A stretch of 24,601 nt of DNA. It comes from an archaeon (lineage in GTDB: Archaea > Asgardarchaeota > Hermodarchaeia > Hermodarchaeales > Hermodarchaeaceae). Numbering within the stretch: position 1 is the stretch's first letter; every line of letters starts with the position of its first letter. Location: assembly GCA_016550425.1 (NCBI GenBank), contig JABXGS010000006.1:1-24601 (forward strand), written 5' to 3'. This document shows, one piece after another, positions 19,633 through 24,368 of this stretch. The notes below the pieces were generated by a model that saw only the letters and a program-made list of their open reading frames with translations, made no database searches and was not told where the DNA came from. Both the position numbers and the translations under genes were made by a program.

Positions 19633-20952
19633 CTACTTTTTGATATAACGATTGTAGACCCAACCACCAACCGCTAAGGCGACAACAATTACTATGCTAA
19701 TAATGATGTATTCTATAGGAATTGGCTCTGGTGGAGGTGGTGTCGTGGGGGTTCCTAGATATTCTCCGACCTCCCAATCCCACTGAAAAATCTGTGAAAA
19801 ATAATTTGCTACACCTGAATGTGAAATTATTACACCTGCCTCTCTGTTTTCACTCACTGATTCGTTACTCCAGTTGATGCTTGAAATGAGTACTCGTTGG
19901 TTATCAGCGATAACGCCCTTGTTATGGGTCCATCCAAAGTAGGTTTGATTAGTGAAAGCGACTTGGACGCCATTTGCGAGGAACATATCTGCGACGTCTT
20001 GCATTCCAGAACTTCTGTTATCAAGCATAACTCTGCAAGTCACACCACGCGCAGCAGCAGCAATTATTGCATCATTAAACTGATTAGATGAACCGTCCCA
20101 CGATATTTTTGAATACATTTGTTGAATATCTAAAGTAGAGGTTGCGCTGTCAATTAAAGCAACAATTGGTGGAATACATTCGTTGGGAGACACTAACGAG
20201 GTAATAGTCATTGTACCTGTAAATGATTGATTGGAAAACGGAGCTGGATAGGGTCCAGTGTAAGTGCTTGCAGAAAGGAAAACGTAATCATCACCATCTT
20301 GTGTGTAAGGAGTTGCAGCGATTACATCATTAGCAAAAACATTTAGGAAGTATTGAACTACATCTGGATTACGGATTGCCACCCCCCATTCACGGTTCCC
20401 ATCACTATTTATTGGTGGTATTCCGGATTTAGCCCAATTAGCACTTTGAACAATCACAATCTCACGATCAATAATAATGAACTTCGAATGATCAAAATAG
20501 AGATCCGGTCGAGAATAGTAGGCCTGTACATTAGCCCCGTATCCTGGTAGACTTGAAATATTGTAAAGAGAAGCATGTGTCCAGTAATTTTCCGAGCTAC
20601 TAGCCCAATTACGAGATACAATAACCTGTATATTCATGGTACCATTTCTAGCTAGTGCATCAGTGAATTCTCTTAGTAGAAACCCATTGCTTATAGCATA
20701 CATTTCCATAAGAATTTCTTTTTGAGCTCGCCGAAGATAATCTAAAGTAATTTCATATGAGGAGTCAGGAGAAGAGAAACAGTCTACAGTTGCTATTCCA
20801 GTTGTCGTGTTAGCTACAAACTCACCGCTTTGTGCTCGAATTGTAAATGGAAGTTTGTGTGAGCTCATTGGTATAAAGACTGGTTGGGTGAATACCAGCA
20901 AGCTAAGTACAACTGCTATTGTAGATAATCTAAATACATGGGAACGATCCAT
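19633..20952 (-). CDS. exported, membrane-anchored phospholipase D-family protein with two HKD motifs
   Basis: A 439-residue protein of the PLD superfamily, which cleaves phosphodiesters in lipids or nucleic acids through a two-histidine active site. It has an N-terminal signal segment (STIAVVLSLLVF, about 10-21) and two complete HxK(x)4D motifs: HSKFIIID (H155, K157, D162) followed by SANW, and HNKGVIAD (H343, K345, D350) followed by SSINWSNES. A Pro-rich linker (TPTTPPPPEPIPIE) leads to a C-terminal helix and YNRYIKK, so the catalytic part faces outside. I chose ATG 20952 because the signal peptide then starts properly; the ORF extends to 21024 without clear signals. Extracellular nuclease, lipase or toxin-like roles are all possible. 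It is convergent with the 83-residue gene and divergent from the 160-residue gene. Confidence 0.9.
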   Translation of the reverse strand: MDRSHVFRLSTIAVVLSLLVFTQPVFIPMSSHKLPFTIRAQSGEFVANTTTGIATVDCFSSPDSSYEITLDYLRRAQKEILMEMYAISNGFLLREFTDALARNGTMNIQVIVSRNWASSSENYWTHASLYNISSLPGYGANVQAYYSRPDLYFDHSKFIIIDREIVIVQSANWAKSGIPPINSDGNREWGVAIRNPDVVQYFLNVFANDVIAATPYTQDGDDYVFLSASTYTGPYPAPFSNQSFTGTMTITSLVSPNECIPPIVALIDSATSTLDIQQMYSKISWDGSSNQFNDAIIAAAARGVTCRVMLDNRSSGMQDVADMFLANGVQVAFTNQTYFGWTHNKGVIADNQRVLISSINWSNESVSENREAGVIISHSGVANYFSQIFQWDWEVGEYLGTPTTPPPPEPIPIEYIIISIVIVVALAVGGWVYNRYIKK

Positions 20953-21147
20953 TGTAATACATTTCCTGTTGAGTCTTGTACAATGGTATCGATTCTGGAG
21001 CATTTTCCTATTAGAATCTATCACATTTTCCGATATTTTGGGTTTTCATGGCGACAAAAGCTTGAAAATAATTGAAACAGAATTTATTCGTGATTTTTCT
21101 ATTTGAGTCTAGTTCATTTCGTGAAAGGTTGATATAGGATACTTAAG

Positions 21148-21155
21148 CTATAATG
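21148..21155 (+). promoter_or_regulatory. TATA box candidate for the 160-residue protein
   Basis: GCTATAATG lies about 44 bases before the GTG at 21195. Predicted transcription start is near 21177, leaving a short leader that includes GGTGA at 21185-21189. Confidence 0.45.
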
Positions 21156-21194
21156 ATTGCCTAAAAAACATTGTAACCATAAAGGGTGAAAATA

Positions 21195-21677
21195 GTGGCT
21201 AAAGAACTGAAATATACATTCAAACAATTCCCCCCTGCTGAAAAAGCGTTCAAATGCCTTGTGAATCGATTAGAATTACAGGTTCGAGAAGAAGACATAG
21301 GTGGAGGACTTAGGGCGTTTAATGAAAATCGCAGTTTGTCAATGCAGTTACAGACTCGCGTAACTGAACGTGGTGGAATGACTGTTGAAGTTCACATTAG
21401 GGCATCAAATGATACACTTATCTCGCATGTTCTCGCCTGTTTTGGTGAACCAGACAAGGAACGAAAAATGGCTCCAACGGCTAAGGATTTTGCAGAAGTT
21501 ATAATGACAACCGAATTGGGTGAAGATATGAAGGCTTTTGTTTCAGAAGTCTGTTCAAAAATGGACATTACAGCTGACCAATTCGGAAATTATCGAGCTA
21601 TGGTTATAACAACATCTGGTCTTCCTGGTGCTTCTATGGAAATTAAAAAAGCAGCAAAGAAACTTAAATCCCTTTGA
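21195..21677 (+). CDS. soluble protein of unknown function
   Basis: A 160-residue protein I do not recognise, with no membrane segments. The N-terminal half alternates strands and charged turns (NRSLSMQLQTRVTER, MTVEVHIRASNDTLISHVLACFG). The C-terminal half is helical, with KDFAEVIMTTELGEDMKAFVSEVCSKM and a Lys-rich end (EIKKAAKKLKSL). The look is of a small alpha/beta domain, perhaps nucleic-acid- or ligand-binding, but I see no diagnostic motif. Two GTG starts are possible. I chose 21195 because GGTGA ends five bases before it, whereas the GTG at 21186 overlaps that site. The gene is convergent with the zinc-finger gene, 23 bases away. Confidence 0.72.
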   Translation: MAKELKYTFKQFPPAEKAFKCLVNRLELQVREEDIGGGLRAFNENRSLSMQLQTRVTERGGMTVEVHIRASNDTLISHVLACFGEPDKERKMAPTAKDFAEVIMTTELGEDMKAFVSEVCSKMDITADQFGNYRAMVITTSGLPGASMEIKKAAKKLKSL

Positions 21678-21700
21678 TTACGTGACCTGAAAGACTAAAA

Positions 21701-21868
21701 TTAGCCAAATCGTAATTCATGTGTATCGGATTCGTGACCACAGACTGGGCATTTGTATTTCTTTTTCTTGAAAATACAGGCCCGGTGAAATGAAGAATTA
21801 CAATTCGAGCATTTAATCGGGGTTTGCACCATTTTTCCGCATGCCTGACAGACATCATCAGAACTCAA
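21701..21868 (-). CDS. 55-residue C4HC3 (RING/PHD-like) zinc-finger protein
   Basis: Minus-strand translation gives a tiny protein that is almost entirely a two-zinc finger: C7, C10, C20, C23, H28, C31, C40, C43. The spacing is CxxC-x9-CxxC-x4-HxxC-x8-CxxC. The core NSSFHRAC followed by KYKCPVCG is the cross-brace pattern of eukaryote-like RING and PHD fingers, with C4HC3 order. A short DTHELRFG tail follows. No ATG precedes the first cysteine in frame. The only start that keeps all eight ligands is TTG 21868, with AGGA ten bases ahead, and the frame is open only to 21880. The stop is at 21701. It could be a small E3-type adaptor, a transcription accessory finger or a substrate tag reader; nothing nearby encodes ubiquitin machinery. 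Eight correctly ordered ligands in 55 codons make chance unlikely. Confidence 0.78.
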   Translation of the reverse strand: MSSDDVCQACGKMVQTPIKCSNCNSSFHRACIFKKKKYKCPVCGHESDTHELRFG

Positions 21869-21960
21869 AATATCACATTCCTATTACTCTAATACCTACG
21901 GACTTCATGATTAAACGTTTCTCTTGGAGTTCCTCATAGATTAATTCGTTAAGGAGTACC

Positions 21961-22887
21961 TCAAATTTCTTTTTCTTTGATGTAAGGGACACCTATTGCC
22001 TTAGGTGGTATCGATCGGCGGATAATCCCTAATGCTACAATAACGCTGATGTATGGTATCATTTGGATAAATTGGACATATTGTGAGAGAAACTGAAATT
22101 CAGGTAGAATAAGTATCGAGGATTCGATAGCACTTAGAAATCCAAAGAACAAACCAGAAAGAAAGACACCAAGTGGAGTCCAATTTCCGAAGATTAATGC
22201 GGCAAGAGCGATAAATCCACGACCACCAGTCATTAATTCAACGAACCGGCCAAGTGATCCAATGGATAATTGAGCCCCACCAAGGGCAGAAAGAATGCCA
22301 CTAAGAACGACTCCTACCATTCTTACCGTTTCCACACTCACTCCAGCAGTATCGAGAGTGCTAGGATCTTCTCCTGAAGCACGTAGTCTTAACCCAAAGG
22401 GAGATCGAAAAAGGACATAATGACTTAGGGGAAGCATGAGAAACATCAATACAATCAATGGTGTGATATATCCTAGCCAAGGAACCGCAACTCCAGGTAA
22501 ACGTGGAACTGTAGGGGATACACCATGAACCCCCCATATTGCAAAAAGTCCAAATGTCGTTAAACCTGTAGCGAATAAAATGATGCCTGCACCACTTACA
22601 ATCTGGTTCCCTTTTAGTTTCACACAAATTATTGCATGAATTAGTCCTAAGAAGGCTCCTGAAACAAGAGCAGCTAGTAGACCAAACCAAGGATTATTTG
22701 TGAACCAAGTTATAGCTACTCCTGTAAAAGCACCCATGAGCATCATACCCTCTAAGCCGATATTAACCACTCCTGATCGCTCCGAGAACATACCACCTAA
22801 TGCTGCTAGTACTAAAGGTGTAGCAAATTTCAAAGTAGAATTGATGAACCACGCAATTATTAGCGGATTAAAAAGTGAATCCTGCAT
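21961..22887 (-). CDS. BMP-type nucleoside ABC importer, second permease (YufQ/NupQ-like)
   Basis: A 308-residue membrane permease of the branched-chain-amino-acid/ribose superfamily, nucleoside branch. Seen: GGMFSERSGVVNIGLEGMML (31-50), the signature of this subunit, then alternating hydrophobic helices, SPFGLRLRASGEDPSTLDTAGV (the cytoplasmic coupling loop that docks on the ATPase) and GGRGFIALAALIFGNW. Length is typical. Its ATG shares one base with the stop of the preceding permease (TGATG), and a strong GGAGGTG lies seven bases ahead. It is the partner of the gene upstream, and together they form the channel. The substrate is expected to be purine or pyrimidine nucleosides by family. 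The binding lipoprotein gene is not in the window. Confidence 0.93.
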   Translation of the reverse strand: MQDSLFNPLIIAWFINSTLKFATPLVLAALGGMFSERSGVVNIGLEGMMLMGAFTGVAITWFTNNPWFGLLAALVSGAFLGLIHAIICVKLKGNQIVSGAGIILFATGLTTFGLFAIWGVHGVSPTVPRLPGVAVPWLGYITPLIVLMFLMLPLSHYVLFRSPFGLRLRASGEDPSTLDTAGVSVETVRMVGVVLSGILSALGGAQLSIGSLGRFVELMTGGRGFIALAALIFGNWTPLGVFLSGLFFGFLSAIESSILILPEFQFLSQYVQFIQMIPYISVIVALGIIRRSIPPKAIGVPYIKEKEI

Positions 22888-24368
22888 CAGAACGCACCTC
22901 CGATAATTACTCCCTTCCTAAATGTCAGATAATAAGAAGAAACAACAAGAAAGATTCCGATGAGTCCAAGTACTAAAAGAGGTATCGTGAGGGTGTTTAC
23001 CTGAAATATAAAAACCAATATTGCTAAAACTATCCAACAAATTGATGAAACAAAGGCGACAAGAAGACCCCATATTCGTCTCATAAAAATACCTACGAAG
23101 GCAACAAGGGCTACAATTCCAATACTAACCATTTGAGCCATGAAGATAAGATCGGTTTGAGTATGAGCAAAGCCAATGAAAAGCCCAAGTATGGACCCAG
23201 ATAGAGTGATAATCGCGGTAAGAAAAATTGGTAATGCACTTTTAGGGTCTTCGATTATCCAATTGGCATATTGATTGCCTCTAGAAGCCAACCATTTGAT
23301 TATCTTAGGGGCTGCTACAAATATAACGACTAGTCCTTGGATTATGATAACCATCTCTCTGGGAACATTAGCAACTGAATCCATAACAACGGCGCCTGCT
23401 TTCAAGAAACCAAAGAACAGGGCACCTAAAAACACACCAAACGGATTATTAAGACCAAGTACAGCAACTGTTATCCCGTCAAAACCTAGTCCCGCAGACC
23501 ATCCATTGATGAAGCGATGATGATAGCCAAGAATCTCTCCTGCTCCAGCTAGTCCCGCAAGAGCGCCACTAAGAGTTAGAGCTAGTACCATCATATATTT
23601 TGGATTGATGCCTGCAGCTTCAGCCGCATATAAATTGCGACCCACAGCTCGAATTTCGAAACCGCTTACAGTTTTATTCAAAAAAAACCAAATAGCAATG
23701 GCGCAAATGATTGCCACAATAAATCCAGCATGAAGAAAGGGGGACCCTAATAGATTGGGAAGCATGGCTGTATTTTGAATGGGAGAGGTTTGGGGATATG
23801 GCGTTCCGGGTTCTTTCAAGGGAAATGTTACCAGCCATTCTGTTAAAAGGATAGCAACATAGCTCAACATCATTGTAGTAACAACTTCATGAGCACCACG
23901 ATAGGCCTTAAGCAAACCAGGAAGAAACGCCCAAGCAGCCCCACCAATTGCGGCTGCAATTAGACAAGCAAGCGGATGGATAATGGGAGGTAACAACGTG
24001 TAAACCCCAAGAATAGTCGCTATCATTGCACCGATGTAAAGCTGACCTTCTGCACCAATATTAAAAAGACCGGCTTTGAACGCAACAGCTACTGAAAGTC
24101 CAGTTAGAATTAGAGGAGTTGCATACCAGAATACCTGATCGGGATTTCTGAAAGCACCCTGAATTAAAACTGCATAAGCAAAAAATGGATCATAGCCTGT
24201 TGCAATCATTATAAGGGCGGCTATAAACAATGCAAGAATAATGGAACCAAGTGCCCAAAACACTTCTTTCAAAATTTCTAATAATGTTCTTTCGAAAGGG
24301 CGAAGTTCTTGTCCGCCATTAATTACCTTTTCAACCTCTGAATCACTTGAGCCACGAATATCGTTCAT
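22887..24368 (-). CDS. BMP-type nucleoside ABC importer, first permease (YufP/NupP-like) with extra C-terminal helices
   Basis: A 493-residue permease. The core (about 40-355) carries AFKAGLFNIGAEGQLYIGAM (96-115), YRGAHEVVTTMMLSYVA (156-172), the coupling loop FEIRAVGRNLYAAEAAGIN (237-255) and LGFDGITVAVLG (294-305), all typical of the subunit. Usual members end near 350-365 residues. Here about 130 residues follow, with four further hydrophobic segments (about 380-400, 408-428, 433-456, 460-482) and a short basic end. The segment is of no family I recognise. The start overlaps the ATPase stop by four bases (ATGA), with GGAG about eight bases ahead, so the importer genes are translationally coupled. 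Confidence 0.93.
   Translation of the reverse strand: MNDIRGSSDSEVEKVINGGQELRPFERTLLEILKEVFWALGSIILALFIAALIMIATGYDPFFAYAVLIQGAFRNPDQVFWYATPLILTGLSVAVAFKAGLFNIGAEGQLYIGAMIATILGVYTLLPPIIHPLACLIAAAIGGAAWAFLPGLLKAYRGAHEVVTTMMLSYVAILLTEWLVTFPLKEPGTPYPQTSPIQNTAMLPNLLGSPFLHAGFIVAIICAIAIWFFLNKTVSGFEIRAVGRNLYAAEAAGINPKYMMVLALTLSGALAGLAGAGEILGYHHRFINGWSAGLGFDGITVAVLGLNNPFGVFLGALFFGFLKAGAVVMDSVANVPREMVIIIQGLVVIFVAAPKIIKWLASRGNQYANWIIEDPKSALPIFLTAIITLSGSILGLFIGFAHTQTDLIFMAQMVSIGIVALVAFVGIFMRRIWGLLVAFVSSICWIVLAILVFIFQVNTLTIPLLVLGLIGIFLVVSSYYLTFRKGVIIGGAF
22895..22901 (-). promoter_or_regulatory. strong Shine-Dalgarno site inside the first permease gene
   Basis: GGAGGTG on the minus strand overlaps the last codons of the first permease (Gly-Gly-Ala) and lies seven bases before the ATG of the second. 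It is the longest match to the archaeal 16S tail seen in the window. Confidence 0.7.

Follow-up and report, generated by a model that had tools for sequence, protein, structure and literature searches.

Does a 55-codon open reading frame with a TTG start, whose product holds eight zinc ligands and little else, represent a gene, and if so what might the product do? The frame lies on the minus strand of the archaeal stretch studied here (the window: 24,601 nucleotides, positions 1 to 24,601 of contig JABXGS010000006.1), and a first-pass annotation had read it as a miniature RING/PHD-like finger protein that, given an Asgard-type host, would have a bearing on ubiquitin-like signalling. The frame is a real, functional gene that is easy to overlook, and we lean towards reading its product, here called the finger, as a free-standing, lysine-rich, non-enzymatic two-zinc cross-brace adaptor acting in trans.

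A conserved gene for a 55-residue finger protein

Translation of positions 21868-21701 of the minus strand gives LSSDDVCQACGKMVQTPIKCSNCNSSFHRACIFKKKKYKCPVCGHESDTHELRFG*, which confirms the annotated frame and its eight ordered ligands (C7, C10, C20, C23, H28, C31, C40 and C43), spaced CxxC-x9-CxxC-x4-HxxC-x8-CxxC as first described. The window has a single occurrence of a slightly loosened form of this four-pair pattern, which turns up in 0/1000 dinucleotide-block shuffles of the window and in 1/1,000,000 shuffles of the protein. The charge of the protein is +3.7 counting free cysteines, with about +1 expected when metal is bound.

Homologues were sought with a family profile in 227 Asgard genomes, 42 of which gave matches at E ≤ 0.001. 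Strong full-length stand-alone copies (E ≤ 2.4e-29) are present in eight genomes, one copy each, and these are all eight genomes of the set that are counted to the class Hermodarchaeia, to which Candidatus Hermodarchaeum yapensis belongs; the other 34 genomes have weak matches only (E ≥ 2.7e-6). When genome contigs were scanned with the finger, a single locus was returned, in Candidatus H. yapensis (NCBI lineage Promethearchaeati, Hermodarchaeota, Hermodarchaeia, which we take to be an Asgard group), where the copy has 55 codons, an ATG start and 75% of residues in common with the window protein. Among 5.8 billion proteins, two word-limited searches picked out four family members, P0002-P0005, the H. 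yapensis protein not being among them. P0003 is identical to the class copy of genome G071. P0004 carries the label Candidatus Hodarchaeota, and the family may therefore extend outside Hermodarchaeia. The phage collection searched contained no relatives of the finger, and a literature search of titles and abstract beginnings found nothing about this gene.

In an alignment of nine proteins (the window copy, L001 and seven further class copies, with P0002 left out, as it was from A4 and A5) all eight ligands are invariant, as are K12, V14, T16, K19, F27, K35, K36, G44, E51, R53 and G55. Ligands 6 and 7 are separated by eight residues in the six closer copies; in the three divergent ones this loop is longer. 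The C-terminus (window residues 51-55) reads E-[LM]-R-[FYV]-G, with the E, R and terminal G invariant in the nine rows; this E-x-R-x-G pattern is not kept in P0004 (ALTYG) or P0005 (SMQMT). Among the six closest genes, the window copy included, the start is TTG in three and ATG in three at the same codon position, and the ratio of nonsynonymous to synonymous substitution rates (dN/dS) is 0.04-0.13 for 8 of the 15 pairs, the remaining seven pairs giving no dS.

A short frame with a TTG start could be a chance open reading frame or a pseudogene, but we give this a negligible probability and reject it in view of the conservation in 8/8 class genomes, the purifying selection, the kept start position and the conserved upstream signals described below. 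The annotation had named a frame break, a lost ligand or a tandem-ribbon structure as outcomes that would speak against it; none appeared, and neither a frame break nor a lost ligand is found in the eight class genomes or in P0003-P0005.

Predicted fold and the readings it allows

In structure searches, two AlphaFold2 models of the finger (pLDDT 77 and 72) are similar to RING/U-box domains along almost the whole of their length, with moderate scores; for model 1, eight of the top 12 Foldseek rows are RING rows (TMq 0.55-0.61). The finger probably folds like eukaryotic RING/PHD fingers, the kind of fold that the annotation had anticipated. The annotation's double label holds in part: C4HC3 is right, but C-C-C-C-H-C-C-C is the order of PHD fingers and not the C3HC4 of classical RINGs. 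A Pfam scan of the window protein reached no gathering score among the best 25 of 72 families, the best RING-type score among these being 22.5 of 26.6 bits.

From the ligand order, spacing and predicted fold we infer a two-zinc cross-brace, and we propose an adaptor role. The finger would be a mini-protein consisting of one treble-clef-type finger, transcribed from its own promoter, in which pairs 1 and 3 (C7, C10, H28, C31) and pairs 2 and 4 (C20, C23, C40, C43) most likely each hold one of two zinc ions. Most likely it works as a binding module without enzymatic activity, whose metal-braced core would display the invariant K12, K19, K35, K36 and R53, together with the loop rich in lysine that separates ligands 6 and 7, for a protein or nucleic acid to bind in trans.

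A minimal RING-type ubiquitin ligase (E3) recruiting a class ubiquitin-conjugating enzyme (E2) would agree with the RING/U-box-like predicted fold, with the weak matches to RING-like Pfam models and with the presence of two E2 matches per genome in 8/8 class genomes against 0/14 control genomes. However, all eight class genomes have in the E2 stretch (L088-L095) a dedicated RING-pattern protein of ~82 residues (81-83 aa from the likely start) with an invariant CxVC, a helix Trp and CPICR (motif WDWT...CPICR), its gene lying between the two E2 genes in seven genomes and, in G001, next to one E2 gene close to the end of a contig, whereas the finger genes are on other contigs than the E2 stretches in all eight. 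RING E3 proteins have the ligand order C3HC4 or C3H2C3, E2-contacting hydrophobic residues and a linchpin Arg or Lys after ligand 8; the finger has C4HC3 order and no Trp, with Gly following ligand 8 in 9/9 copies and Pro following ligand 7 in 5/9. Comparison of the finger with the class small RING by hhalign gave a probability of 36.2 (36%, against 98% for another Asgard finger described below). Because the E2-side RING is separate and the finger lacks the linchpin, the Trp and the location, the ubiquitin reading is not favoured; we regard it as very unlikely, and a small binding module is more likely than a ubiquitin ligase. The proposed tie to ubiquitin-like signalling is therefore not upheld. 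Nor do the data show that the finger informs on how eukaryotic RING/PHD domains arose; strong full-length copies were found in one class only, plus P0004.

The main rival, in our view unlikely, is a ribosome- or RNA-associated small zinc protein binding rRNA or mRNA in the general style of aS21/HVO_2753, the type that we take the family model NF011481 to describe. The finger is rich in lysine and of small size, chains from archaeal ribosomal particles occupy Foldseek rows 1, 4, 6 and 11 for model 1, and phmmer aligns residues 5/6-46 (E 0.036 and 0.11) with 6sw9_C and 9fny_A1 ('Zn-ribbon RNA-binding protein'), although TMq to the ribosomal-type chains is 0.33-0.35 as against 0.55-0.61 for the eight RING rows, and HVO_2753 itself (6ydh) compares with the second model at probability 0.30 and TMq 0.35. 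Kinship with NF011481 is also not favoured: the finger scores 14.3 of 61 bits against that model, 7/8 class genomes have a separate NF011481 gene above the cut-off, hhalign gives a probability of 25.1 against these class proteins, and the ligands differ (HxxC instead of CxxC, x4 instead of x6). A rubredoxin-linked or tandem-ribbon protein, with the fourth CxxC a rubredoxin-type knuckle and the window copy shortened, is suggested by residues 36-51, which match rubredoxin knuckles in profile searches, and by P0002 (88 aa), in which 38 of the finger's first 40 residues are succeeded by a rubredoxin (PF00301, significant at 1.3e-24). P0002 is, however, a single protein on one 1053-bp metagenomic contig, and its switch falls in a KKYKC (KKKKYKC) stretch common to the finger and rubredoxins, which makes an assembly chimera or recent recombination likely; P0002 is possibly a chimera. 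A free rubredoxin identical to the P0002 part was not among the 120 listed of 2748 matches (best 94%, P0018; database clustered at 90%). With no rubredoxin at this position in the eight class genomes or P0003-P0005, we hold the rubredoxin reading to be highly improbable.

Upstream signals and neighbouring genes

The finger gene may have its own promoter, read from the conserved GAAACGTTTAA block upstream of the start, and the GTGAT box fits an archaeal Shine-Dalgarno sequence (Table 1); three divergent class genomes have AAGGAG 5′ of the start. A scan for sigma-type promoters is uninformative for archaeal DNA, and no RNA family scored above its gathering score in 21150-22900.

The gene order common to the window and Candidatus H. 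yapensis is permease, permease, finger, 163-aa gene, PLD-like gene and GH38 gene, a synteny by which the window is placed and which bears out the Asgard-type archaeal host considered at first. In related genomes, where the annotation had looked to conserved ligands and synteny as a check, all eight ligands are kept and the convergent 163-aa gene adjoins the finger in 8/8 class genomes (in L070 only residues 109-163 were matched). The ABC permease adjoins it in 5/8; among the divergent genomes, another gene lies upstream in L070 and L071, and the contig ends there in L069. An operon with the ABC permeases was considered and is unlikely, given the promoter-like block of the finger's own and the different upstream gene in L070 and L071.

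Other Hermodarchaeum proteins (L003, L004 and L009; open frames of 173-175 codons with, by eye, a probable membrane anchor) have a finger of the form CxxC...CxxC-x4-HxxH...CxxC and lie outside the E2 stretch.

Table 1. Coordinates of the finger gene, its upstream signals and adjacent genes in the window.
Feature	Coordinates	Strand	Remarks
Coding sequence, 55-aa C4HC3 finger protein	21701..21868	-	TTG start, TAA stop
GTGAT, ribosome-binding-like box	21872..21876	-	Just 5′ of start; invariant in 6/6 closest genes
GAAACGTTTAA, BRE/TATA-like block	21911..21921	-	Invariant in 6/6 aligned upstream regions
ABC transporter permease (BPD_transp_2)	21961..22887	-	Upstream of finger, same strand
Convergent neighbour, 163 aa	21186..21677	+	No Pfam match at E 0.001
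PLD-like protein	19633..21024	-	Beyond 163-aa gene; matched in 7/8 class stretches (not L070)

Relatives and comparison with known fingers

In other genomes, many of the weak profile matches fall on fingers embedded in ~450-aa proteins whose N-terminus is vWA-like; 23 distinct loci of this kind were assembled, eight of them supplying a finger profile and ten a whole-protein profile. The finger compares with the eight vWA-protein fingers at a probability of 98.2 (E 5.6e-14), a figure that is biased because those eight were picked from matches of the same profile; the finger of Asgard vWA-like proteins is, by this profile comparison, the nearest relative found. The two have in common CxxC-x9-CxxC-x4-HxxC (with FH) and a last CPxC, their first three pairs being spaced alike; in contrast, the vWA-protein finger is embedded near residues 237-285 with an x17 loop before its last pair, and 7/10 of the vWA-like proteins have a C-terminal zinc ribbon by Pfam, whereas the class finger is stand-alone in 8/8 genomes. 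The finger is related to the vWA-protein fingers of other Asgard archaea and forms a separate small protein in Hermodarchaeia. The vWA label is a weak one: PF00092 was matched in 1/10 members (E 0.0062) and the label is otherwise a motif reading, and no Pfam family was seen for the whole ~450-aa protein.

The whole-protein profile finds 74/227 Asgard genomes at E ≤ 1e-10, often as adjacent (tandem) pairs, and none of the eight class genomes at that threshold; a search of the class for vWA-like proteins gave one weak match of the C-terminal ribbon, in G067. A split vWA protein whose other half is kept in the class was rejected: no such half turned up, the whole protein having otherwise matched just the finger gene, in 5/8 genomes. 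Loci with vWA-like fingers include L017, L019-L026, L029, L044-L047, L049-L064, L103:7323-10113 and L104:5539-8326, and a shorter type of ~385 aa occurs elsewhere. An aminotransferase-dehydrogenase gene pair is located at 393-2825 of the window; similar pairs, judged by eye, follow the tandem vWA-like finger genes in two other Asgard genomes (L103:10827-13270 and L105:9987-12444).

The TFIIH core subunits p34/Tfb4 and p44/Ssl1 combine a vWA domain with a RING-like finger, and the finger model matches 7zsa_4 of a yeast TFIIH-containing complex (probability 0.87, TMq 0.64), chain 4 of such complexes being presumably Tfb4. It would be a long shot that the TFIIH vWA subunits have precursors in Asgard archaea and that Hermodarchaeia keep only the finger, as a free subunit and detached counterpart of the vWA-protein finger. 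A TFIIH identity of the vWA-like proteins was tried and rejected: no Ssl1/Tfb4 model appeared among the eight families shown or the best 25 of 44, and no vWA/TFIIH chain was recognised by name in PDB searches (2 matches; best 60 of 91). A literature search on Asgard TFIIH p44 found no paper.

The protein adds to the Asgard repertoire a minimal, probably cross-brace-type finger that is conserved class-wide and thinly represented in protein databases, and through it a broader family of Asgard vWA-like proteins bearing related fingers comes into view. At 55 residues, a two-metal finger is simple to express and solve, and would make a eukaryote-style cross-brace outside the ubiquitin system testable in archaea.

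PHD fingers are marked by C4HC3 with CxxC-x4-HxxC and an aromatic residue two positions before ligand 7. The finger has the C4HC3 order, the x4 before the His and a Tyr or Phe two residues before ligand 7 in 9/9 copies, and PF00628 matches all nine members weakly (the window copy over 7-43), but it stays below the gathering score (17.7 of 24 bits) and its last loop has only eight residues in the window copy. The C1 domain (PF03107, PF00130) gives the window protein its lowest Pfam E-value (7.9e-5) and matches 9/9 members weakly; the score is nevertheless below gathering (23.3 of 26), and the match begins at profile position 16 of 48, so that the beginning of the C1 signature is absent. The Nse1-type RING-like domain, part of a larger SMC5/6 subunit and presumably what PF08746 models, is matched over the whole model (1-43/43), though below the gathering score (22.5 of 26.6). 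Nse1 chains (7dg2_A, 5hvq_C, 2ct0) stand at ranks 7 and 12 in the model-1 search, where 7dg2_A has the highest probability (0.99), and at ranks 1 and 2 in a further structure search. Archaeal ubiquitin operons encode a small RING finger protein (srfp) that is reported to act as an E3 (PMC5654768); the class E2-side RING resembles it, and the finger is likewise a small archaeal protein with four ligand pairs and a predicted cross-brace, whereas the class's srfp version differs from the finger in its HxxH and its x12 and x10 loops as well as in the features given above. The NF011481 type (PMC11241148) is also a small archaeal protein with four ligand pairs, but in the class's own members all four pairs are CxxC and F[KE]GP stands at the C-terminus, where the finger has HxxC as its third pair and ends in ELRFG.
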